A DNA stretch of 64,000 nt from Ignavibacteria bacterium. GTDB lineage: Bacteria > Bacteroidota > Ignavibacteria > Tepidaquicellales > Tepidaquicellaceae. This document shows positions 37,570-49,267 of the stretch, in pieces (position 1 is the stretch's first letter; every line of letters begins with the position of its first letter). The stretch lies in the NCBI GenBank assembly GCA_028714695.1, contig JAQTLX010000002.1, positions 290,975 through 354,974 on the forward strand, read 5' to 3'. A model generated the notes under the pieces. That model searched no databases. It saw only the letters and a program-made list of their open reading frames with translations, and was not told where the DNA came from. The translations under genes were made by a program, and so were the position numbers.

Positions 37570-38450
37570 TGAAAAGAATTGTTTTACTGCTAATTGTAAT
37601 TTCTTTATTTTCCTGTAAGAATCCCGGAAAAGGTAACTTAGAAGTTGAATTGAAAGACGATTTGGGAAAATCGTTCAAAATAGACAGAAGTCCCGAAAAA
37701 GTTATATCGCTTGCACCAAGTATTACGGAGATTATTTATTTCATCGGTGCGGATTCACGGCTTGCCGGTGTTACAAAGTATTGCGACTATCCTCCCGAAG
37801 CAAAGAATAAAACGATAATTGGAGGGCTGCTTGACCCCAATCTTGAACTGATTTCGCAGATAAAGCCCGACTTAATCTTTTTAACTACCGAGGGCAATTC
37901 GCAGATGACATATAAATCATTGACCGATATCGGCTATAAAGTATTTGTAATGAACCCAAGAAATATTGATGATATTGTAATAACGATGGAAAAACTGAAT
38001 AAAATATTAAATCCTCCGGGCGGCGGGAATAAAATTTCCGAATTCAAAAAAAGTATTCAGGCGTATAAGGATAATCCGAAAACCAACTCCACATATGCTG
38101 CATTTCTTTCTGTAAAACCATTGATTACATTCAATGATAATACTTTTATCGGAGATATCTTTAAGCAATCAGGATTTAATAATTTATTCGGAAAAGAGAA
38201 ACTTGATTATCCGGGAATTTACGAAGAGGATATTTTACTAAAAAATCCGGATTATTTATTTGTGCTGTCCGATACTTCTCTCGCTGCGCATCAGCGATTA
38301 AATGATGAAATAGGGAACAGATTTAACGATATAAAAGCGTATAAAGAAAAGAAATTCTATTATCTGGATGAAAATGTATTCTCGAGACCGGGTCCGAGAG
38401 TACTTGATGCGTTGAAAAAACTATATGAAGTTAAAAATATCGGGAATTAA
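37569..38450 (+). CDS. BtuF-like ABC transporter substrate-binding lipoprotein
   Basis: A 293-residue lipoprotein (lipobox LFSC, Cys16) of the periplasmic binding family that serves vitamin B12 or iron-siderophore ABC importers. The opening VISLAPSITEIIYFIGA and GGLLDPNLELI are BtuF-like. No permease or ATPase gene is in the window. Cobalamin import would fit the B12-dependent mutase at the left end, but the ligand is inferred. Confidence 0.85.
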   Translation: MKRIVLLLIVISLFSCKNPGKGNLEVELKDDLGKSFKIDRSPEKVISLAPSITEIIYFIGADSRLAGVTKYCDYPPEAKNKTIIGGLLDPNLELISQIKPDLIFLTTEGNSQMTYKSLTDIGYKVFVMNPRNIDDIVITMEKLNKILNPPGGGNKISEFKKSIQAYKDNPKTNSTYAAFLSVKPLITFNDNTFIGDIFKQSGFNNLFGKEKLDYPGIYEEDILLKNPDYLFVLSDTSLAAHQRLNDEIGNRFNDIKAYKEKKFYYLDENVFSRPGPRVLDALKKLYEVKNIGN

Positions 38451-38767
38451 GATGCTTCTTTATTAATCAGAGGATTTTGGTTAATGATTTTAGAATAATT
38501 TGTGCGTATTTCGTTAAAATTGATTTTTGAGTTTTTATTAAGTGTGTTTTCCTGATTTTGAAATGAAAACATCTTTGTAAGAGATAAATAAAACTTATAA
38601 AGTAAATTATCGATTTCCACCTGTTCTTCGTTTGTCACTTCGCTTAACTCTTCAATGTTAATATTTTTCAGGCAATCATTATTCTTACGGATCTGGTTTT
38701 CGATATCGTAGTTAAGAAGACAAGAAAATTCCTGAAATAATGTTTTTTGTATATTCAAAATGTCCAT
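38447..38767 (-). CDS. Hypothetical small helical protein
   Basis: A 106-residue, Asn/Glu/Lys-rich, helix-predicted protein. It converges with the BtuF-like gene with a 4-bp overlap of stops. No recognised motif. Coding status is moderate: ATG start, reasonable codon use, but no homologs known to me. Confidence 0.4.
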   Translation of the reverse strand: MDILNIQKTLFQEFSCLLNYDIENQIRKNNDCLKNINIEELSEVTNEEQVEIDNLLYKFYLSLTKMFSFQNQENTLNKNSKINFNEIRTNYSKIINQNPLINKEAS

Positions 38768-38945
38768 CCTTGTGGTATTTATTTATTACTATGTTTAGCA
38801 AAATGTGTACCAAAAAAAGATTCGATTTTACTCTAATTTCGGCATTCGCAATCCAAAAATCATAGTATCCATGCTTCCTTTATAATTAAAAGGTTTATTT
38901 TTTGCGTCATCAGATGTGTTTTTCCGTAAATTTTACTGTTAAATT

Positions 38946-38960
38946 TGGCACGAGTATTGA
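38946..38960 (+). promoter_or_regulatory. Second sigma54-like site (imperfect -12)
   Basis: TGGCACGAGTATTGA matches TGGCACG-N4-TTGC except that the last base of the -12 element is A. A terminator 85-105 bp downstream (39044-39067) could end a short transcript from it. This could be a small RNA promoter or just a decayed duplicate. Confidence 0.35.
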
Positions 38961-38993
38961 TATTGTTTATATAAACATCAAAGAGTTACAGAA

Positions 38994-39012
38994 TTCAATG
39001 AACTTCATTGAA
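38994..39012. promoter_or_regulatory. Perfect 19-bp palindrome, candidate activator site
   Basis: TTCAATGAACTTCATTGAA is perfectly symmetric around C39003. It lies about 168 bp upstream of the -24 element of the sigma54 promoter, a usual distance for a bacterial enhancer-binding protein. Confidence 0.5.
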
Positions 39013-39043
39013 TAAGGAAAACATAGTGACTACATAAAATTAA

Positions 39044-39067
39044 GTAGTGATAGCACTACGTTTTTTT
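39044..39067 (+). terminator. Intrinsic terminator upstream of the operon
   Basis: GTAGTG pairs with CACTAC around ATAG, followed by G and seven T residues. No plus-strand gene ends immediately before it. It may end read-through from the BtuF-like gene or a short RNA from the 38946 site. Confidence 0.75.
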
Positions 39068-39168
39068 GTATTTTTTGAAAGAATCTTCTCTAAAAAAAAT
39101 TATAAAGATTTCTCCTAACTATCTTATTTTTTACTGCTTTAAAAAATAATTCCAAAATCTCTGCTATT

Positions 39169-39184
39169 CGGCACGGTAATTGCA
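39169..39184 (+). promoter_or_regulatory. Sigma54 (-24/-12) promoter of the NfrA/NfrB/WecB-like operon
   Basis: CGGCACGGTAATTGCA carries GG at 39170-39171 and GC at 39182-39183 with exactly 10 bp between, and matches GGCACG-N4-TTGC. Expected transcription start is about 39195, leaving a short leader with the AAAGGG ribosome site (39211-39216). Sigma54 requires an ATP-driven activator, so expression should be conditional. Confidence 0.65.
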
Positions 39185-39221
39185 AAATGCTTGATAAGTT
39201 TTAAATTAAGAAAGGGTAGAT

Positions 39222-40913
39222 TTGAACAAGGTATATATATATACGGCGTTTTTAATTATTATTGCATTAGCAGTATTAAGTTCTAAAGCGAACTCACAAG
39301 TCCTCAACGAATCCACAAACAGCGATACAGAACTGCTTAATCAGGGTTATGCTTATATCAACAGCAATCAATATGAAGATGCAATCTCTTCGTTTAATAC
39401 ATATCTGAAATCAAATCCAAACGACGTAAAAGTTAACCTGCAACTCGGTTATCTGTATTCGAATATGCATGATTATGAAAAAGCATATGAAAAATTCAAA
39501 TTCGTTTCAGAGAATTCAACAAATTCTGACGAAGCAGAAAAAGCAAAGATTTCGATGTCCTACATAAATCAACTGATTAAGGAATCGGAAAAGAAGGATT
39601 CGACTAAAATAAAAAATGATTTGGTTGACAAAGGTTATTACTTTATCAACAATAAACAATACGATGATGCAATAAATGCATTTGAAACATATCTTTTAAC
39701 GAATCCGGGCGACACAAAAGTCAATTTGCAACTTGGGTATTTATACAGTCAGAAACAAAATTATGATAAGGCAAACGATAAATTCAAATATGTATCCGAA
39801 AATTCGAATAACACGGAAGACGTTGAAAATGCCAAAACAGCAATGCTGAATATAAAAGGACTTTTGAAGAATACAAATCCGGGTTTGACGCCTTCAAAAG
39901 ATTCACTGAATAACAATATAAACGGCAGCGGAACTGAATTGTTGAACAAGGGATATGATTATGTCAACAAAAAACAATACAGCGAGGCTATAGCGGTGTT
40001 TAAAACATATTTGATTTCGAACCCCGGGGATACAAAAATCAATATGCAGTTGGGTTATTTATACAGTGAAACGAAAAGTTATGAAAATGCATACGACAGA
40101 TTTTCATATGTCGCTGAAAATTCAACAAATCCGGATGAAGTTGACAAGTCGAGAACATCGATGTGGTATATGAGAGATTTAATGATTCGAAATGCAAAGT
40201 CATCTTTCGATTTGTATTTCTATAATATGTTCGATTCTTATTATCACAATTATGTTTCTAATCTGCTTGCGCATATCAATTTCAAACTGACAAAAGGAAT
40301 TTATGCCGGACCGTATGTTGAAACGTACCTTGATTCGAAATCATCAGCGGATAACATTATAAACGACAGATTCTTCGATATCGGAGGATTCACGAAATTC
40401 CAGTTAACCGACTATATGAATCTGGAAGTAAGAGTCGGTTATGTAAGAGAAATTGATAAGAAAATTAACAGCGTCAGTTTCAAACCGATATTATCTCTCG
40501 GCACCAGACTCGGAAATGCAAGTTTCTACAAAGACAGAAAAACAAGCAAAACAGAGAATTTTTATTTCGACATATACGGCGTCGGATTGTATGATTACAA
40601 GTTCCGAAACGTATTTGCGATGTTACAATTAAAAGAAGTCCTCCGCTATATGACCGGCGGTTATTCATACATGGAATTTTACACCAAGCAGGAAGCATCG
40701 CTCGATTCCAAGCAGTTATATTATAATAACTATCTTGATTTCGGAGCGGGAATCGCTTTCAAACCAAATTTAGTAAGTTTTCCGACATTATTCGTTGAAG
40801 CCGTAAGCAGAAATTTTCTCGTCGATGAAAACGGAGTATGGCTTAACGGTAGTTTCAAAAGTATTTTTCAGTTTAGAGGGGGTTTTATAATTTACTTTAA
40901 TACAAAATTATGA
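39222..40913 (+). CDS. NfrA-like outer-membrane protein with TPR repeats
   Basis: A 563-residue exported protein: signal peptide (residues about 1-26, KANSQ), three homologous TPR-containing modules (about 34-115, 125-215, 225-315; each with GY..(I/V)N..QY..AI..F..YL..NP.D.K), then a beta-barrel-like C-terminal half. TPR followed by a barrel is the layout of NfrA and other exopolysaccharide exporters such as PgaA. The start is a TTG at 39222, supported by AAAGGG 5-6 bp upstream and a leader nearly identical to that of 42439. It overlaps the next gene by 4 bp (ATGA). The NfrA assignment is by layout and context. Confidence 0.72.
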   Translation: MNKVYIYTAFLIIIALAVLSSKANSQVLNESTNSDTELLNQGYAYINSNQYEDAISSFNTYLKSNPNDVKVNLQLGYLYSNMHDYEKAYEKFKFVSENSTNSDEAEKAKISMSYINQLIKESEKKDSTKIKNDLVDKGYYFINNKQYDDAINAFETYLLTNPGDTKVNLQLGYLYSQKQNYDKANDKFKYVSENSNNTEDVENAKTAMLNIKGLLKNTNPGLTPSKDSLNNNINGSGTELLNKGYDYVNKKQYSEAIAVFKTYLISNPGDTKINMQLGYLYSETKSYENAYDRFSYVAENSTNPDEVDKSRTSMWYMRDLMIRNAKSSFDLYFYNMFDSYYHNYVSNLLAHINFKLTKGIYAGPYVETYLDSKSSADNIINDRFFDIGGFTKFQLTDYMNLEVRVGYVREIDKKINSVSFKPILSLGTRLGNASFYKDRKTSKTENFYFDIYGVGLYDYKFRNVFAMLQLKEVLRYMTGGYSYMEFYTKQEASLDSKQLYYNNYLDFGAGIAFKPNLVSFPTLFVEAVSRNFLVDENGVWLNGSFKSIFQFRGGFIIYFNTKL

Positions 40914-42379
40914 TATACGAAATATTTCAAATATTGCTTTGGGTGACCGCCATTATGCTGTTCATTAGCGGCATCGATGACCTTTACCTTGATGTACTGT
41001 ACTGGCTTCAGAGAAGAAAATATAAAAAGAAAATGCCTGATTTTTCGGAAATGTTCGATAAACCTGAAAAACCTATTGCAATTTTCTTAGGTGCATGGAA
41101 AGAGTCTCCGGTTATCGGAAGAACACTAAGTTATGCGATAAGAAACCTCAACTATACAAATTTCAGATTTTTTGTAGGTGTTTATCCGAATGATCCTGAT
41201 ACTTTGAGAGTTGTACAGGAAATATCAAGAAAAGACGCCAGAGTGATTCCATGTGTTAACAGCCAGAACGGTCCTACAACAAAAGCCGACAATCTTAATT
41301 GTCTGTTCTCGGGTGTAGGAGAATACGAAAAACGTTACGGTCAGTTTGAAGTTATACTCGTTCATGATGCCGAGGATTTCATTCATCCGAATTCATTGAA
41401 GTTGTATAATTTCCTTCTCGGATACAAAGGTTATCATGCGGTACAGATTCCCGTAATTCCGATTAAAAGCAGTCTTGGAAAATTATTCCATAGAACTTAC
41501 TGCGACGCTTTTGCGGAAGTCCATACAAAGGATATGATAGTAAGACAGGCTATGGGTACGTTTATACCTTTCGCGGGCACGGGAATGGGATTCCACAGGA
41601 AAACATTCAACTATCTTGAGAAATACAACTGGGACCTTGAAACTGCCAAGAGGCATAGAAGCGAAATGGATGATCCATTTAACGTTGAATCAAAGAAAGA
41701 CGTTATCGCGGAAGCGGAAACAAAATTCTCCGAAGATGATTTTGTTTTTTCGAACGATGAAAGCCAGAGGTCGGGAATATATATCAACGAAACAAGTTAT
41801 CACGATGATCCGTTCGTAAGTCTCAATGACGACCATGTACAGCCGGGAAGCAAAAAAGTCCCTGAATCAATCAAGGGTTATACATTCATGTTTCTCGCTA
41901 TGGTACTCGGATGGATATCATTCCTGATTTATACGGGAAATACTGAAGCAAGCCAGGAAAATATGATTACTGACGCGCAGGTCATTGAAAAATTCAATCT
42001 TGCTCCGAGCGAATTGAAAGCAAGTGAATTAACAAACAGCGTATCCGCGAATCTTGAAAAGGAAATGAACAGTTCCAGAATTATCAAAGACGGTATTATC
42101 AGTGTAAGCAACGGATTCTCCGATGAAAAATATAACGTTCTTTATATAAAGGACAAAAATGACAAGTTTATAATTCAGGAATCCGTCTGGAGTTCTGAAG
42201 AGGCTGCAAAAAGCAGAGTTGAAGTTCTCAATACTACGGAATACTTCAACAACAAATCAATAGAAATACAGGATGTCAACAGCAACGGCGCTTTGATTTA
42301 TAAAGTGTTCATATCCGGTTACAAATCAATAGACGAAGCAAGACTGGATGTTGCAAAAATTAAAAAACAGGTACAATAA
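40910..42379 (+). CDS. NfrB-like glycosyltransferase, N-terminal half fused to TM-SPOR
   Basis: A 489-residue membrane protein. Residues 1-240 match the first half of NfrB-type family 2 glycosyltransferases: membrane-proximal helix with ISGIDDLYLD (19-28), PIAIFLGAWKES, VGVYPNDPD, GPTTKADNLN, the metal/nucleotide motif HDAED (152-156) and FAGTGMGFHRK (221-231). Then the domain stops: an acidic linker (240-320), a membrane segment (324-341) and a C-terminal SPOR domain (about 408-487, KFIIQESVWSSEEAA to YKVFISGYKSIDEARLDVA) follow. The acceptor motifs TED and QxxRW are missing and occur in the next gene. Predicted to function only with it. No c-di-GMP-binding MshEN-type domain is visible. Confidence 0.85.
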   Translation: MIYEIFQILLWVTAIMLFISGIDDLYLDVLYWLQRRKYKKKMPDFSEMFDKPEKPIAIFLGAWKESPVIGRTLSYAIRNLNYTNFRFFVGVYPNDPDTLRVVQEISRKDARVIPCVNSQNGPTTKADNLNCLFSGVGEYEKRYGQFEVILVHDAEDFIHPNSLKLYNFLLGYKGYHAVQIPVIPIKSSLGKLFHRTYCDAFAEVHTKDMIVRQAMGTFIPFAGTGMGFHRKTFNYLEKYNWDLETAKRHRSEMDDPFNVESKKDVIAEAETKFSEDDFVFSNDESQRSGIYINETSYHDDPFVSLNDDHVQPGSKKVPESIKGYTFMFLAMVLGWISFLIYTGNTEASQENMITDAQVIEKFNLAPSELKASELTNSVSANLEKEMNSSRIIKDGIISVSNGFSDEKYNVLYIKDKNDKFIIQESVWSSEEAAKSRVEVLNTTEYFNNKSIEIQDVNSNGALIYKVFISGYKSIDEARLDVAKIKKQVQ

Positions 42380-42438
42380 TTAATACTGTACCGTACAAGG
42401 GTACAAAAAAAAGGTTTTAAATAAGAAAGGGTAAATTT

Positions 42439-43791
42439 ATGACTCCGTCAAAAGATCAAAACATCTTTTCGGAAAAAGATGAGAACATGTCAAACGGCGA
42501 TGCAAGAAAAACACCGTCAATTGATAACAAGATATCGGAAATAGAAGATAGGATAAAGAATTTATACGAAAAGAGCATACCGGACTTTATTAACGTAAAC
42601 ACTGCAAAAAAAGAGGAAGAATCTTTTCTCAGGAAAAAACTTGAAGTCGTCAGCGATAACATCAAACAGATATCCGGCGAAGTCAGAACAACCGCTCCCG
42701 AACAGAAATCGGCAGAAGTCAGAAAAACCACTCTCGCAGGCGCAAATGAATATGATTACCTGCCTGAAGGTCCTCAATCCGATACCCTTGAAAGAACAAT
42801 CGAAGATATTGAAAAAAAGATAGAAAGTCTGAACAATCTTACCGCCGAATATAAATCTTTAAAGGATCCGATGCCCGTATCAAACGATAAAGATTTGTCA
42901 AAGAAAGTTTTCAATAACTTCTATAAAGATGATGAAATAATCGGAAATAAAGACAACGTTGTAAAAGACAAACTTGAAAGAATTGACGAACAAATCAAAG
43001 AGTTAAAAAATAGTATCTCATCACTTCATACGGCGCAGAGGGTAACGCATTCATCGGTTGTTGAAGAGAGACTTAAAAGCATAGAAGAAAAACTTACCGA
43101 AGAAGACAAATCCGGGAAACAAAAAGTTGTTCCTCACGGCGCGATTACACTTCGTCCGAAATCAAAAAAAGAAGGATTGTTCAACGATGTGAACCTTACC
43201 GAGGACTATGAACTCGGATTCAGATTCTATCAGTTGGGTTTCAAGACGGGTTTCTTTAACGTTAAACTGGACAGAGACGACGAAGCATCAAGAATCGCGA
43301 CAGCGGAATTTTTCCCGAACACGTTCTGGTCATCCGTAAAGCAAAGATCAAGATGGGTTGCGGGAATCGTTTTCCAGAACTGGAAGGCCCACAAATGGGC
43401 TGGAAATCTTTCAACAAAATATTTCCTGTTCAGGGACAGAAAATCAATTTTCAGTTTCTTCAGCGCGTTCCTTTCAAATATTGTTATTGTATATTTCATA
43501 TATTCAATAGTCAGCAAACTGATGGGGTGGCCGCACGTTAATTCACTCGTGGGACACAGTTCGGTATTATGGTATCTTATGATTGCAAATCTGTTCTTCA
43601 TGATTTCCAGACTTTCGCACAGATTCGTATTTACGTACAACTGGTACGGATTCAGATATGCATTCTTCAGCATTTTCAGGCTTCCGCTGGATACTATTAT
43701 CAATTTCTTTGCCATTGCCCGTTCGCTGAACGTGTATAAAAACACAAAAACAAAAACGAAGGCAGTTTGGGATTCAACATCACACTATTAA
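42439..43791 (+). CDS. NfrB-like glycosyltransferase, C-terminal half with coiled-coil N-terminus
   Basis: A 450-residue protein. Residues about 25-225 are hydrophilic and coiled-coil-rich (KISEIEDRIKNLYEK, LERIDEQIKELKNSIS, EERLKSIEEKL). From 247 the second half of the glycosyltransferase resumes: FNDVNLTEDYELGFRF with TED at 254-256, FFPNTFWSSV, QRSRW at 302-306, then RDRKSIFSF and three membrane segments (about 337-362, 374-395, 405-428). The frame differs from the upstream gene, and a 59-bp spacer with AAAGGG precedes its ATG, so it is a separate gene, not a frameshift artefact of a few bases. The coiled coil could bind the first half or a regulator. Confidence 0.85.
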   Translation: MTPSKDQNIFSEKDENMSNGDARKTPSIDNKISEIEDRIKNLYEKSIPDFINVNTAKKEEESFLRKKLEVVSDNIKQISGEVRTTAPEQKSAEVRKTTLAGANEYDYLPEGPQSDTLERTIEDIEKKIESLNNLTAEYKSLKDPMPVSNDKDLSKKVFNNFYKDDEIIGNKDNVVKDKLERIDEQIKELKNSISSLHTAQRVTHSSVVEERLKSIEEKLTEEDKSGKQKVVPHGAITLRPKSKKEGLFNDVNLTEDYELGFRFYQLGFKTGFFNVKLDRDDEASRIATAEFFPNTFWSSVKQRSRWVAGIVFQNWKAHKWAGNLSTKYFLFRDRKSIFSFFSAFLSNIVIVYFIYSIVSKLMGWPHVNSLVGHSSVLWYLMIANLFFMISRLSHRFVFTYNWYGFRYAFFSIFRLPLDTIINFFAIARSLNVYKNTKTKTKAVWDSTSHY

Positions 43792-43840
43792 TAAATATAT
43801 TTCAAAGCATATTAATTAATTAAAAAAGATAAGATAAGAA

Positions 43841-44974
43841 ATGAAAAGCGGGGAAAAAAAGAATATTCTGATAGTTCTGGGTACAAGACCGGAGATAATA
43901 AAACTTTTCGTACTTTACCGTGAACTCAAAAAATCAAAAGAATTTAATCCGATATTATTCAATTCTGCGCAGCAGACAATTTCAGAGGATATCCTTTCAT
44001 ACCTCGATTTGAAGTTTGATATGTCGGCGGAAGAAATTCCAAACAGAAGCGCTGATCTGGAATTATTTATTGCGCATCTGATGAAAGATCTGAATACGAA
44101 ATTCGTGAAAGGCGAATCAGGATTCAAAGTGAACGATATTTCGGGAGTTGTTGTTCAAGGTGATACGGTATCGGCATATACCGGTGCCATCTGGGGATTC
44201 CTTAATGAAATCCCCGTGTTTCACGTCGAAGCGGGTCTGCGTACTTTTGACCATCAGAATCCATTCCCCGAAGAGTTTTTCAGAGAATCTGTCGGCAGAG
44301 TTGCAAGTTTGAATTTCTGTCCGACACACATAAGTTACGGCAATCTGATTAGAGAAGGAATAAATGAATCAAAGTGCTTTATTGTGGGGAATACAATAAA
44401 CGATGCAATTGTGACATTAATAAATGAAAATAAAATAAAAGATTATTCTTCGGAAGATTACATATTAAGTACTCTTCACAGAAGAGAAAACTGGGATAAA
44501 GTTCAGGACTATTCGAAAATTCTGAACAAACTTTTAAACGAGAAAAAAACATCGAGAAAAATTATACATTTACTGCATCCGAATCCTGCAATAAGAAAGA
44601 GTTTTTACGGAGGATTAAACGGAAATACAAACGAAAATCTTGTCATTAACGATCCTGTTAATGATTATTTCCAGATGCTTGGTATGGTCAGAAATGCTCA
44701 TACTATCATTTCAGACTCGGGCGGTCTGCAGGAAGAATCATTGTTCTTTAATATTCCCTGCGGAATTATGAGAAAAGTAACGGAAAGACCCGAAGTACTT
44801 TCTAAAAACGCAAAACTTCTGAATTTTGATTTCGCGGAAGTTTCAAGTTTTATTGATTATTCAGAATATTATAAAAATAACGTTGAAAAAGGGTATGACT
44901 ATACCTTTGGCAGGGGAGATACAAGCGTGAAAATTTATAATATTTTTCTAAATTATTTTAAATTAAAACCTTGA
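43841..44974 (+). CDS. wecB: UDP-N-acetylglucosamine 2-epimerase (non-hydrolysing)
   Basis: A 377-residue WecB/MnaA-type enzyme interconverting UDP-GlcNAc and UDP-ManNAc. Key stretches are GTRPEIIK, VVQGDT (Asp), HVEAGLRT (Glu), PEEFFRE (Glu), TLHRRENW (His) and SDSGGLQEES, so the catalytic residues described for E. coli WecB are retained. The usual AQH near residue 40 reads AQQ. Its place after the split NfrB genes suggests it supplies UDP-ManNAc for the polymer. In E. coli this enzyme is shared with enterobacterial common antigen synthesis. The symbol reflects the family. Confidence 0.9.
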   Translation: MKSGEKKNILIVLGTRPEIIKLFVLYRELKKSKEFNPILFNSAQQTISEDILSYLDLKFDMSAEEIPNRSADLELFIAHLMKDLNTKFVKGESGFKVNDISGVVVQGDTVSAYTGAIWGFLNEIPVFHVEAGLRTFDHQNPFPEEFFRESVGRVASLNFCPTHISYGNLIREGINESKCFIVGNTINDAIVTLINENKIKDYSSEDYILSTLHRRENWDKVQDYSKILNKLLNEKKTSRKIIHLLHPNPAIRKSFYGGLNGNTNENLVINDPVNDYFQMLGMVRNAHTIISDSGGLQEESLFFNIPCGIMRKVTERPEVLSKNAKLLNFDFAEVSSFIDYSEYYKNNVEKGYDYTFGRGDTSVKIYNIFLNYFKLKP

Positions 44975-44985
44975 GGAGAGGCAAA

Positions 44986-47004
44986 ATGAACGCTATTTTA
45001 AAAACTATTTCCATCTTTATTATCATATTCTGTGTTTCCAATATTTACTCACAGGATTTCGTAAAAAACAGCCGGACAGAACAATACAGACTGCCGCAGC
45101 TTCCTAATCTCTACAAATATTTCGATAAAGATTATGCCGTAAGGGATAATCCCAATTCTGTTCTGAAACAGGATTTCTTTTTAACACTGAGAGACAATGT
45201 GCAGATGGATGCATCGAAATTTTATCCGTCCGAAGCAAATCCTTATCTGCCGAACGGTTATCCGGTAGTAATAATGGTACACGGTTACGGCGACAGAAAA
45301 GAAACTCTTGAAAACTTTGCGCTTGCGCAGGCATCATACGGTTATGTTGTCTATACATACAGCGTAAGAGGGCAGGGAAATTCAGGCGGATTGTCAAATT
45401 TAATCAGCAGAACTGAAGCGCAGGATTTGATTGAATTTGTAAATTACGTAAAACACGATAATACGGCAACAGGTTCTGATTCGAGCAACGTTCTTATAAT
45501 GGGCGGTTCACAAGGAGGCACGCTTCCTTATATGGCTGCATCTATGGGAATGAATGTAAAAGCAATCATCTCCGCTTTGGCTTCTCCCGAATTCGGTACA
45601 AGTTGGATTGAGAACGGCTGCGTCAAAATGACAATGCTGTGGACAAGCGATTATACTTCAGATACAGCGAGATATACACCGCTGGTTTCAAGATTTCCGG
45701 CATGGATTTATTCCAATGCAGCGGATAAATGGGATAGTCTTGCATACTGGGTGCCTTTAAACAGAGACTTTAAATCAATCATTGCAAACAACAGGGTTCC
45801 GATGTTGCTCGAGAATTCATGGCAGGATATGTTCTTCAATGCTCTCGGCAATATCAACGGCATCTCCTTGTTAACAGCGCCTTCAAGATATTATTTCGGA
45901 GCAGTTACCGGACACGGCGGCGATACATCGCCGACTGAAGATACATGGCACATGAATTTCTTCAACGAATGGTTCTTCTACTGGCTCTTCGGAATCGAGA
46001 ACAATATATTAACCCGTCCGAAATATCATTATGCTTATACATCAGCGCCGATAACATCGAGCGGTACATGGTCGTTTGTTCATGACAGTTCGACAGTATT
46101 TCCGCCCGCAGGTGTAAATAATTTCAGATTATATTTCAATACAAATAAGAAACTAAAAAAGACAGTTAATCCGCTTCAGACACAGTACGTAACGATTACA
46201 AACACTGTTAAATCCGGTTATACTCTTGAAAAAGCGGTAATGGATGAATTCAAAGGTTCAACATTCAAAGCAGGATTCAAGAAAGACTCCACAGTATTCG
46301 ATTCCGATATTCTTACATCGGATGCAAAGTTGATTGGCACACCAAGCCTTAAACTCGATTATTATTCAAACGTAAACGCATGCCAGTATAACTTCCAGAT
46401 TTTCGAAGTGAACAGCGCAGGCGTGAGCAAATTTGTAACAAGCATAAATTATACAGACAGGAAAAACGTAAAGAATACAAGAAGACAGAAAGTAATAACG
46501 GGAAATTCACATGCTCATATTTTCAAAGCCGGAAGCAAGATAAGAATTATACTCACAAATCTTGACCAGAGATGGAATTATCCATTCCTCGGCACGAATC
46601 CATTTGTACTGCCGGTTGTTGCTTCAGCATCGAACAGAATGTACTTAAGTTCAAATTCATATATCGATATGCCGATAATCGGAACATCACCGTTGATGCA
46701 TCCGATGTTAAGCGGTCCTGAAGGAACAGAGCCGACCGTATTCGCTTTATCGCAGAACTATCCGAATCCGTTCAATCCCGTAACGAAGATTAGTTTCAAT
46801 CTTCCGAAAGATTTCAGCGGAAACGTAACTCTGAAGATTTTTGATATGACAGGTAAAGAAGTTGCTCAGTTGATGAATGAAAGCCTTACAACAGGTCTGT
46901 ACGAAGCAAGATGGGATGCATCGAAGTTCTCGAGCGGTATCTATTTCTACAAACTTACCGCAGGCAGTTTCTCGGATGTTAAGAAAATGATTTTAGTAAA
47001 ATAA
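44986..47004 (+). CDS. T9SS-exported X-Pro dipeptidyl-peptidase-like hydrolase
   Basis: A 672-residue alpha/beta hydrolase of the CocE/X-Pro peptidase (S15) type. Signal peptide (residues about 1-23, SNIYSQ), then VIMVHGYGDR, the nucleophile elbow GGSQGG (Ser175), Asp281 in SWQDMFF and His310 in TGHGGD as likely triad, and a C-terminal jelly-roll domain. It ends in a T9SS sorting domain (NYPNPFNPVTKI, KKMILVK). The open frame begins with a TTG at 44971, but GAGGAG at 44973-44978 sits just before the ATG at 44986, which I chose. It closes the operon; the link to the polysaccharide is unknown. Confidence 0.87.
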   Translation: MNAILKTISIFIIIFCVSNIYSQDFVKNSRTEQYRLPQLPNLYKYFDKDYAVRDNPNSVLKQDFFLTLRDNVQMDASKFYPSEANPYLPNGYPVVIMVHGYGDRKETLENFALAQASYGYVVYTYSVRGQGNSGGLSNLISRTEAQDLIEFVNYVKHDNTATGSDSSNVLIMGGSQGGTLPYMAASMGMNVKAIISALASPEFGTSWIENGCVKMTMLWTSDYTSDTARYTPLVSRFPAWIYSNAADKWDSLAYWVPLNRDFKSIIANNRVPMLLENSWQDMFFNALGNINGISLLTAPSRYYFGAVTGHGGDTSPTEDTWHMNFFNEWFFYWLFGIENNILTRPKYHYAYTSAPITSSGTWSFVHDSSTVFPPAGVNNFRLYFNTNKKLKKTVNPLQTQYVTITNTVKSGYTLEKAVMDEFKGSTFKAGFKKDSTVFDSDILTSDAKLIGTPSLKLDYYSNVNACQYNFQIFEVNSAGVSKFVTSINYTDRKNVKNTRRQKVITGNSHAHIFKAGSKIRIILTNLDQRWNYPFLGTNPFVLPVVASASNRMYLSSNSYIDMPIIGTSPLMHPMLSGPEGTEPTVFALSQNYPNPFNPVTKISFNLPKDFSGNVTLKIFDMTGKEVAQLMNESLTTGLYEARWDASKFSSGIYFYKLTAGSFSDVKKMILVK

Positions 47005-47042
47005 TTGGTTCTTTAAACATAGTTTTGATTCATTAATCCCTC

Positions 47043-47066
47043 GCGGCCGGGTTCTCCCCCGGCCGC
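47043..47066 (+). terminator. GC-rich hairpin after the hydrolase gene
   Basis: GCGGCCGGG pairs with CCCGGCCGC around a 6-nt loop; the following T-run is weak (TAAAA). Lies about 40 bp past the stop. Confidence 0.6.
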
Positions 47067-47228
47067 TAAAAGGGAAATCACCAGATTAAATTTAATTAAG
47101 TTAAGGGTATTTATAAGAAAAAGGTAATTCGGGAATTAATAGGTACAGGGTAAACTTATTATTGTATTTCCGGATTATATGAATACAAAGCAAGCAGTAT
47201 TCTATGAAGTACTTTTTCATTTTGTTCG

Positions 47229-47262
47229 AAAAGCCGGATATATATTTTTGTCCGGCTTTTTT
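47229..47262 (+). terminator. Intrinsic terminator before the ABC-F gene
   Basis: AAAAGCCGGA pairs with TCCGGCTTTT across a 12-nt loop with a following T-run. It separates the exopolysaccharide operon from the ABC-F gene. Confidence 0.8.
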
Positions 47263-47308
47263 ATTTCTGCGTTTCTACTTCCTGTCAATTTAGGTATTTT
47301 GAAAAAAT

Positions 47309-49267
47309 ATGGTAATACTGGAAAATATATCGGTTAATTTCGGAACGAGAAAACTTCTTGATAACGTAAACCTCAGAATCGGCGGTAAAGACAGATTGTC
47401 GCTTGTCGGCGTCAATGGCGCGGGCAAGAGCACTCTGCTTAAGATTATAATCGGCGGATTTAATCATGACAGCGGAAAAGTTATTAAGTCGCGGCACTCT
47501 ACTTACGGATATCTTCCTCAGGAAACCGTAAGGCTCAAGGGACGTAAATTGTACGACGAAGTGTACGATTCGGCGGAAGATATTAAATTGATTCAGACCG
47601 AACTTGCGGAAGTTGAAGAGGACATGAAAACGTATGATAACAATGAAGATGAGAATTACATGGACCTGCTTACGACTTATTCGGAACTGCAGGAGCAGTT
47701 TGCGCTTCTTGAAGGACATAAACTTAAATCAAAAATAGAAAAAATTCTTTCGGGGCTGGGATTCGAACACGATGAATTTGAGAAGGATGTGGAAACATTC
47801 AGCGGAGGCTGGCAGATGAGAATTGAACTTGCGAAACTGCTTCTTAAGAATCCTTCTGTCCTCCTTCTTGACGAACCGACTAACCATCTTGATTTCGAAT
47901 CGCTCGTCTGGTTTGAGAGGTATCTGATTAATTATAAAGGAGCAATCGTTGTTGTTTCTCACGATAAAGAATTTTTGAATAATCTCACCAACAAGACCGC
48001 TGAGATTCATAACGGCGAAATGACGATCTTTAACGGAAATTACGGTTTCTATGTAGAAGAAAAACAAAAGAGGAAAGAACTCCTCGAAAATCAGTATAAG
48101 AATCAGCAGAAGTATCTTCAACAGCAGGAAAAATTTATAGAGAGATTCAGGTATAAAGCAACGAAAGCAAGAGCAGTGCAGAGCAGAATAAAGATGCTCG
48201 ATAAAATTGACAAGATTGAAATAGAACAGGATACCGAAAAAATTCGATTCCGTTTTCCGCCCGCGGTACATTCGGGACGCATACTTTTTGAAATTGAAAA
48301 TCTGACCAAATCATATGACGGCATAAGAAATGTTCTTGATAATATAAACTTATCAATCGAAAGAGGAGAAAAGATTGCAATCGTGGGAAAGAACGGCGCG
48401 GGAAAATCCACTCTAACAAGAATAATAGCGGGATTAGAATCTTATAATTCCGGTGAATTGAAATTCGGACATAATGTAATCCCAAGATATTTTGCACAGA
48501 ATCAGGCAGAGGAAATGAATCAGGAAAGAAATGCGCTGGAGATAATGCTCGAAGTGAAAAGCGGTGAGAATATGACGGAACTGAGAAAAATTCTCGGCGG
48601 TTTCCTTTTCCACGGGGACGATGTTGAAAAAAAGGTCGCGGTTCTTTCAGGAGGTGAAAAATCACGTCTTGCGCTTGCTAAGATGCTGATTGAACCCTCG
48701 AATCTTCTGATACTTGATGAACCTACTAACCATCTTGATATTCGCTCAAAAGAAGTGCTTCAGAAAGCGTTATCTGATTATGCCGGTACGGTAATTATAG
48801 TTTCACATGACAGGGAATTCATCGACGGCATAATTACAAAAATAATTGAAGTTAAGGACGGCGGAATAAAAACGTATCTCGGCAAATCATCGGAGTATAT
48901 ATCGATTCTTGAAACAGATAATGCGCCTGCAAACGATAAACCGAAAACAGAAAAAGAAAATACGTCAGCAGGTTATAAAGAAGGAATTGAAACCAAAAAA
49001 CGAAAAAAAGAATTCAGCAAGATTTCTGCTTCGGTGCGAAAGAAAATTTCTGAAGCGGAAAAAGAAATAGGGGAACTTGAAAGAAAAAAAATATATTTAG
49101 AACAGGAGATGAGCAAAACCGATTTCTTCAAAGATTCGGATTTTGCAATTGAAATTAAGTATGAGTATCTTGAAATTTCTCAAAAAATAGAAGACCTTAA
49201 CCTTAAATGGGAAAAAGCGGCGGAAGAACTCACTCAACTTGAAAAAACATATTTAAACAATAATTAA
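47309..49267 (+). CDS. ABC-F family ATPase
   Basis: A 652-residue soluble protein with two ABC modules and no membrane domain. Walker A GVNGAGKST and GKNGAGKST; signatures SGGWQMR and SGGEKSR; Walker B LLLDEPTNHLD and LILDEPTNHLD. The linker between the modules (residues about 245-330) is charged, and a C-terminal coiled coil (about 565-650) resembles Uup/YdiF members. ABC-F proteins act on ribosomes or nucleic acids; the exact subgroup is uncertain. The next gene starts 13 bp later. Confidence 0.94.
   Translation: MVILENISVNFGTRKLLDNVNLRIGGKDRLSLVGVNGAGKSTLLKIIIGGFNHDSGKVIKSRHSTYGYLPQETVRLKGRKLYDEVYDSAEDIKLIQTELAEVEEDMKTYDNNEDENYMDLLTTYSELQEQFALLEGHKLKSKIEKILSGLGFEHDEFEKDVETFSGGWQMRIELAKLLLKNPSVLLLDEPTNHLDFESLVWFERYLINYKGAIVVVSHDKEFLNNLTNKTAEIHNGEMTIFNGNYGFYVEEKQKRKELLENQYKNQQKYLQQQEKFIERFRYKATKARAVQSRIKMLDKIDKIEIEQDTEKIRFRFPPAVHSGRILFEIENLTKSYDGIRNVLDNINLSIERGEKIAIVGKNGAGKSTLTRIIAGLESYNSGELKFGHNVIPRYFAQNQAEEMNQERNALEIMLEVKSGENMTELRKILGGFLFHGDDVEKKVAVLSGGEKSRLALAKMLIEPSNLLILDEPTNHLDIRSKEVLQKALSDYAGTVIIVSHDREFIDGIITKIIEVKDGGIKTYLGKSSEYISILETDNAPANDKPKTEKENTSAGYKEGIETKKRKKEFSKISASVRKKISEAEKEIGELERKKIYLEQEMSKTDFFKDSDFAIEIKYEYLEISQKIEDLNLKWEKAAEELTQLEKTYLNNN

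Follow-up and report, generated by a model that had tools for sequence, protein, structure and literature searches.

The closest described system is the N4 glycan receptor synthase of E. coli (NfrB/NfrA/WecB), in which the processive family 2 glycosyltransferase (GT2) NfrB carries the motifs DxD, TED and QxxRW, has an outer-membrane partner with tetratricopeptide repeats (TPRs) and depends on a WecB-type epimerase (PMC8669469, PMC8669472). E. coli NfrB residues D169, D267 and W330, which lie in these three motifs, are each essential by experiment (PMC8669469). We analyzed a 64,000-nucleotide stretch of an Ignavibacteria bacterium (“the window”; GCA_028714695.1, contig JAQTLX010000002.1, positions 290,975 to 354,974) that encodes an NfrB-type synthase with the same motifs between a TPR protein and a WecB-type epimerase. 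In E. coli, NfrB is a single polypeptide carrying an MshEN cyclic di-GMP domain at its C-terminus, whereas the window encodes two chains, with SPOR and coiled-coil parts added and no MshEN match to either in scans with Pfam and NCBIfam models. We assign a probability of about 0.78 to the reading that these two genes, designated N and C, specify an obligate two-subunit NfrB-type synthase (GT2, GT-A fold) that arose once through insertion of an IS5-family element into nfrB. The split itself had been noticed from the DNA alone (“the original prediction”); its origin, traced through a DUF772 transposase relic in the C genes of relatives, goes beyond that.

Both genes are on the forward strand at the positions predicted, N at 40910..42379 (489 amino acids, with an N-terminal membrane helix) and C at 42439..43791 (450 amino acids). 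The GT2 domain is indeed broken between GFHRK, which ends at N residue 231, and NLTEDYELG, which begins at C residue 252, and the breakpoints are ∼1.6 kb apart, where ∼1.5 kb had been estimated. Residues 1-240 of N are the GT-A donor-binding half with KADN and HDAED, and they match the first ∼240 positions of NfrB-type NCBIfam models (PRK14716.1-3, 2.4e-69; NfrB NF008411, 2.3e-55). Residues 245-450 of C hold the TEDYE finger region, QRSRW and membrane helices, and match the continuation of these models (PRK14716.1-3 positions 241-453, 2.9e-43; NF008411 positions 249-470, 4e-38). Because N and C match consecutive parts of the same models, almost no core residue is missing. NF008411 is an equivalog model for E. 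coli-type NfrB, and its curated cut-off of 1170 bits is reached by neither N (188 bits) nor C (131 bits). The motifs expected of each half proved invariant across orthologues: KADN (K125-N130) and the DxD-type donor motif HDAED (H152-D156) in 21 N proteins, and TED and Q..RW (T254-D256 and Q302-W306, bar one position) in 18 C proteins. At 22 loci these motifs are distributed over two genes. Since the equivalents of D169, D267 and W330 lie on opposite sides of the split, neither half could work alone.

Past the break, N continues (41603..42379) with a linker bearing the motif NETSYHDDPF, a membrane segment (residues ∼325-345) and a SPOR domain (∼419-486), all absent from unsplit NfrB. The membrane segment and SPOR domain had been anticipated on this side; the window SPOR match is weak (E 0.00098, just short of the Pfam cut-off), and 12 of the 21 orthologous N proteins match (best 2.1e-8). 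A SPOR-like domain was also folded confidently in a model of the orthologous L065 pair. The added membrane segment of the window N protein would place its SPOR domain in the periplasm, the compartment in which SPOR domains generally bind peptidoglycan. Residues 1-240 of C are a coiled-coil-like linker, and this N-terminal extension (42439..43168) is likewise not in unsplit NfrB. Most N linkers contain NxTxYxDDPFxSLN and most C linkers LYKKLFDSFYxQL; judged by sequence, these are candidate docking segments. The C gene begins 59 nt past the N stop in frame +2 relative to N, with its own ATG, 5' of which lies a ribosome-binding-site-like stretch, AGAAAGGGTAAATTT (42425..42438). Congeners have a similar stretch, AGAAAGGGTAAA, at the corresponding position of their C genes.

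Split loci were found in 14 genomes and eight genera of one Ignavibacteriae family (f1), always in Ignavibacteriae metagenome bins, some of them labelled Bacteroidetes. In three cases, a break between or inside the genes puts the two halves on different contigs, and these were matched up through their context. The window genome has no intact nfrB; its only other copy, on another contig (L050:7295-9683, G000:C9), is also split. Single genes in the same operon order (NfrA-like gene, nfrB, epimerase) occur in genus g16 of the same family (485 amino acids) and in family f2 (444 amino acids). No split was seen among 61 other homologous loci surveyed, bar one cut by its contig end, and the 60 intact homologues, ranging from Ignavibacteriae to Sphingomonas, have 1-20 amino acids at the break site. 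Outside f1, every frame returned by a sampled search of the phylum was of sufficient length to hold the gene in one piece. Across species with the split, the C frame relative to N varies (0, 1 or 2) and the gap ranges from 6 to 60 nt, which excludes a shared frameshift or recoding site. The 14 genomes and the variable offsets rule out an assembly chimera or frameshift and agree with the original prediction that no single base error is responsible. Note that further apparent splits in genome G008 (L061 and L062; same residue, two loci) were rejected, as each break holds NN, an assembly gap.

Both halves are under strong purifying selection. Among congeners, nonsynonymous divergence (dN) of the GT parts is 0.03-0.09, synonymous divergence (dS) is near saturation, and dN/dS is 0.02-0.04 where computable, with equal values for N and C; the linkers evolve several times faster. 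A mirror-tree comparison of N and C distances gave r = 0.94 (0 of 2000 permutations), a correlation that mainly reflects shared history without swapping of halves. For structural comparison, a pair from the sister paralogue (L057, genome G003) was modelled as a fused chain, giving predicted local distance difference test (pLDDT) scores >90 in both GT halves, a predicted template modelling (pTM) score of 0.67 and a disordered linker. Residues 1 to ∼740 of this model, covering both halves, align with BcsA at Z 21.7-23.7 (367-374 residues, root-mean-square deviation ∼4.2) and with hyaluronan synthases at Z ∼21 (367-377 residues over all structures compared; PDB 5ej1, 9fnn and 7sp8). As had been proposed, the halves can meet in a model and complete one cellulose/hyaluronan-synthase-like fold, but because intact homologues were in the alignment and aided the read-through chain, the model speaks for compatibility rather than for association or blind docking. 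An unsplit homologue, when searched against PDB sequences, matched nothing but unrelated small proteins, by chance.

The origin of the split was approached through the start of the C gene. In six genera (g3, g4, g5, g8, g11 and g14), the first ∼140 C residues match the domain with which IS5/IS1182 transposases begin. Pfam DUF772 matches C N-termini at up to 6e-10, and a DUF772/IS5 model matched all 10 C-gene N-termini tested. When a C N-terminus was compared by hhalign with a real transposase from a sister genome, the probability was 98.3% (E 2e-14). The transposase models match C genes over their N-terminal ∼110-250 positions only, and the DDE catalytic domain is not matched. DUF772 is matched neither by the window C protein nor elsewhere in its genome. 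On a tree of the GT sequences the split has one origin (support 77/84; 67/79 without long branches), and parsimony reconstructs DUF772 as present in the ancestor of the split genes and lost twice; one of these apparent losses is in the line to the window. Searches of PDB sequences with a DUF772 profile found nothing, and viral contigs held no relative of the comparison transposase. The segment LYKKLFDSFYxQL in the C linker (42439-43168 in the window, and in relatives) resembles the last DUF772 helix, as if duplicated, and is retained where DUF772 has been lost.

Most likely, then, an insertion sequence both caused the fission and supplied the start of the second gene. Sequence shows that the gene is split, that the split is conserved, that both halves are under selection, that relatives have intact genes and that one domain derives from a transposase; assembly, catalysis, polymer, SPOR role and order of events are what we infer. 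An IS5-family element would have entered, once, an nfrB that was still a single gene, in the surface loop that joins GFHRK to NLTED. The downstream half would have taken its start and its first domain from the 5' part of the transposase gene, and the remainder of the element would have been deleted. Later, the first half would have acquired its membrane segment and periplasmic SPOR domain (SPOR is in most copies), an addition that may anchor the synthase at peptidoglycan or set its position there. The transposase domain would have been lost in some lineages, that of the window among them, with the coiled-coil-like linker kept. In the cell, N, as the nucleotide-sugar-binding half, and C, with the catalytic-base finger (TED), acceptor motif (QRSRW) and membrane channel, would associate at the inner membrane without a covalent link and so form a single active site. 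The synthase would polymerize a sugar, probably N-acetylmannosamine (ManNAc) from the UDP-ManNAc of the adjacent epimerase, and hand the polymer to the NfrA-like protein for export, probably to the cell surface. From what is known of the NfrB pathway (PMC8669469, PMC8669472), the combination of NfrA-like protein, synthase and epimerase suggests production of a ManNAc-type polymer at the inner membrane, followed by its export. Whether this insertion-made heteromer, cut inside its GT-A domain, also uses its separate halves for regulated, SPOR-positioned assembly of the active site, and would thus be active only at the places and times at which they come together, is a further step that we regard as doubtful.

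Insertion was weighed against ordinary mutation, in which a stop and an internal start within an enlarged loop would have divided an equally genuine two-subunit synthase and DUF772 would have been fused later. Unsplit NfrB of genus g16 (L073:6982-8439 and L074:7211-8668) is longer by ∼45 residues at precisely the point where the split genes are broken. This loop may be an intermediate and suggests that the site tolerated growth before the insertion; it fits ordinary mutation as well, as does the weak DUF772 match in some lineages (L067). However, both deep branches of the split clade have DUF772 at the extreme N-terminus of C proteins and in one and the same orientation, parsimony requires just two losses, and elsewhere in family f1 it is confined to transposases or fragments. 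We therefore consider ordinary mutation improbable. It is a good deal less probable still that the halves no longer form one enzyme, with N acting on its own as a glycosyltransferase (SPOR-directed, perhaps) or as a sensor, and C as a channel in the membrane. The new membrane segment and SPOR domain of N would suit such a role, as would a gene in genome G009 that encodes coil, membrane segment and SPOR beside a C gene and has no GT half; set against this are the donor motifs kept in N, TED and QxxRW kept invariant in C, the matched rates, and the 55-60% identity of both halves to the intact f2 enzyme. The least credible proposal, to which we give almost no weight, is that N and C yield a single protein, through recoding, trans-splicing or a split intein. 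It would fit two neighbouring genes whose halves complement each other, but frame offset and spacing differ among species, no intein or Hint domain was matched (Pfam), C has its own ATG and ribosome-binding-site-like stretch in the window's genus, and C proteins carry long lineage-specific N-terminal domains.

Several points weigh against insertion into nfrB and an obligate two-subunit synthase. The single origin has moderate branch support only, and an approximately unbiased (AU) test does not reject a placement of g16 inside the split clade (p 0.35). Inverted repeats of the element are not to be expected at this age, and none were sought. The reassembly of N and C in the cell is itself something that we infer. 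The closed model is that of an in-frame L057 pair read through its stop codon (66 aligned sequences, intact homologues included), and the first model, of the orthologous L065 pair (a shallow alignment of 34 rows), was poor around TED.

The remaining genes of the locus were annotated as follows. The gene at 39222..40913 (forward strand), whose stop codon overlaps the N gene ATG (ATGA, 4 nt), encodes a protein with TPR repeats and a conserved C-terminal half. TPR families match it, no NfrA or barrel family did in scans with Pfam and NCBIfam models, and its orthologues precede split and unsplit nfrB alike; the label “NfrA-like” for this presumed outer-membrane partner rests on position and architecture. 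The window protein has 563 amino acids with three diverged TPR units; four congeners have 387-388 and unsplit relatives 325-349. Downstream of C, the gene at 43841..44974 (forward strand) encodes a WecB-type UDP-N-acetylglucosamine (UDP-GlcNAc) 2-epimerase (TIGR00236, 222.8 bits versus a cut-off of 210.15; PF02350, 7.9e-61), which is likely the supplier of the donor sugar UDP-ManNAc and is kept beside nfrB at split and unsplit loci alike. It is followed at 44971-47004 by an S15-like alpha/beta hydrolase with a type IX secretion sorting signal (Por_Secre_tail), and a similar gene follows the split pair at L072. No Rfam family was found within window positions 38000-48000.

Variant arrangements of the split genes were also seen. 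Loci L028, L064 and L063 (G009) show a three-gene form in which an extra gene stands between N and C, flanked by the NfrA-like gene and the epimerase; a second locus has the extra gene and C alone. The extra gene encodes a coil, SKDFSED tandem repeats, a membrane segment and SPOR, and lacks the GT half. A paralogous split pair (type B: L050:7295-9683, L053, L055, L057 and L066) is without SPOR, DUF772, NfrA-like gene and epimerase. In the window genome (G000) it adjoins GT4 genes and two GH130 beta-mannoside phosphorylase-like genes, and on account of these neighbours the polymer that it makes may be another one, perhaps based on mannose.

Literature searches for a processive GT2 that is split, for a DUF772 that has been domesticated and for a synthase linked to SPOR found none, and we found no processive GT-A synthase reported to be interrupted inside its single catalytic domain. 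Within the clade, forms with a short loop, with a long loop, with a split plus the transposase domain and with a split but no such domain make up a datable series that shows how an insertion sequence can make one enzyme into two subunits with function kept. The synthase, being split in nature, also allows donor halves to be mixed with different acceptor/channel halves and so provides a handle on how cellulose- and NfrB-type synthases are assembled and switched on. Across both halves, the fused model has the fold of BcsA cellulose synthase and hyaluronan synthase; these are single chains, whereas the chain here is split just before the TED-bearing segment. Eukaryotic Alg13/Alg14 and EpsE/EpsF (PMC8993221) similarly place donor binding and acceptor/membrane functions on separate polypeptides, but they are non-processive GT-B enzymes divided between two Rossmann domains, whereas the cut described here runs through the single GT-A domain of a processive enzyme. 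Ordinary explanations of the split fail, and the conserved two-gene synthase joins split glycosyltransferases and insertional gene fission as kinds. For the latter the nearest parallel is mitochondrial cox2, which a mobile-element-like insertion is proposed to have divided into the complementary subunits cox2a and cox2b (PMC5374615); that is an organelle gene with a homing-nuclease-like insert between its halves, whereas in the synthase the second half itself has the N-terminal domain of the transposase fused to it.
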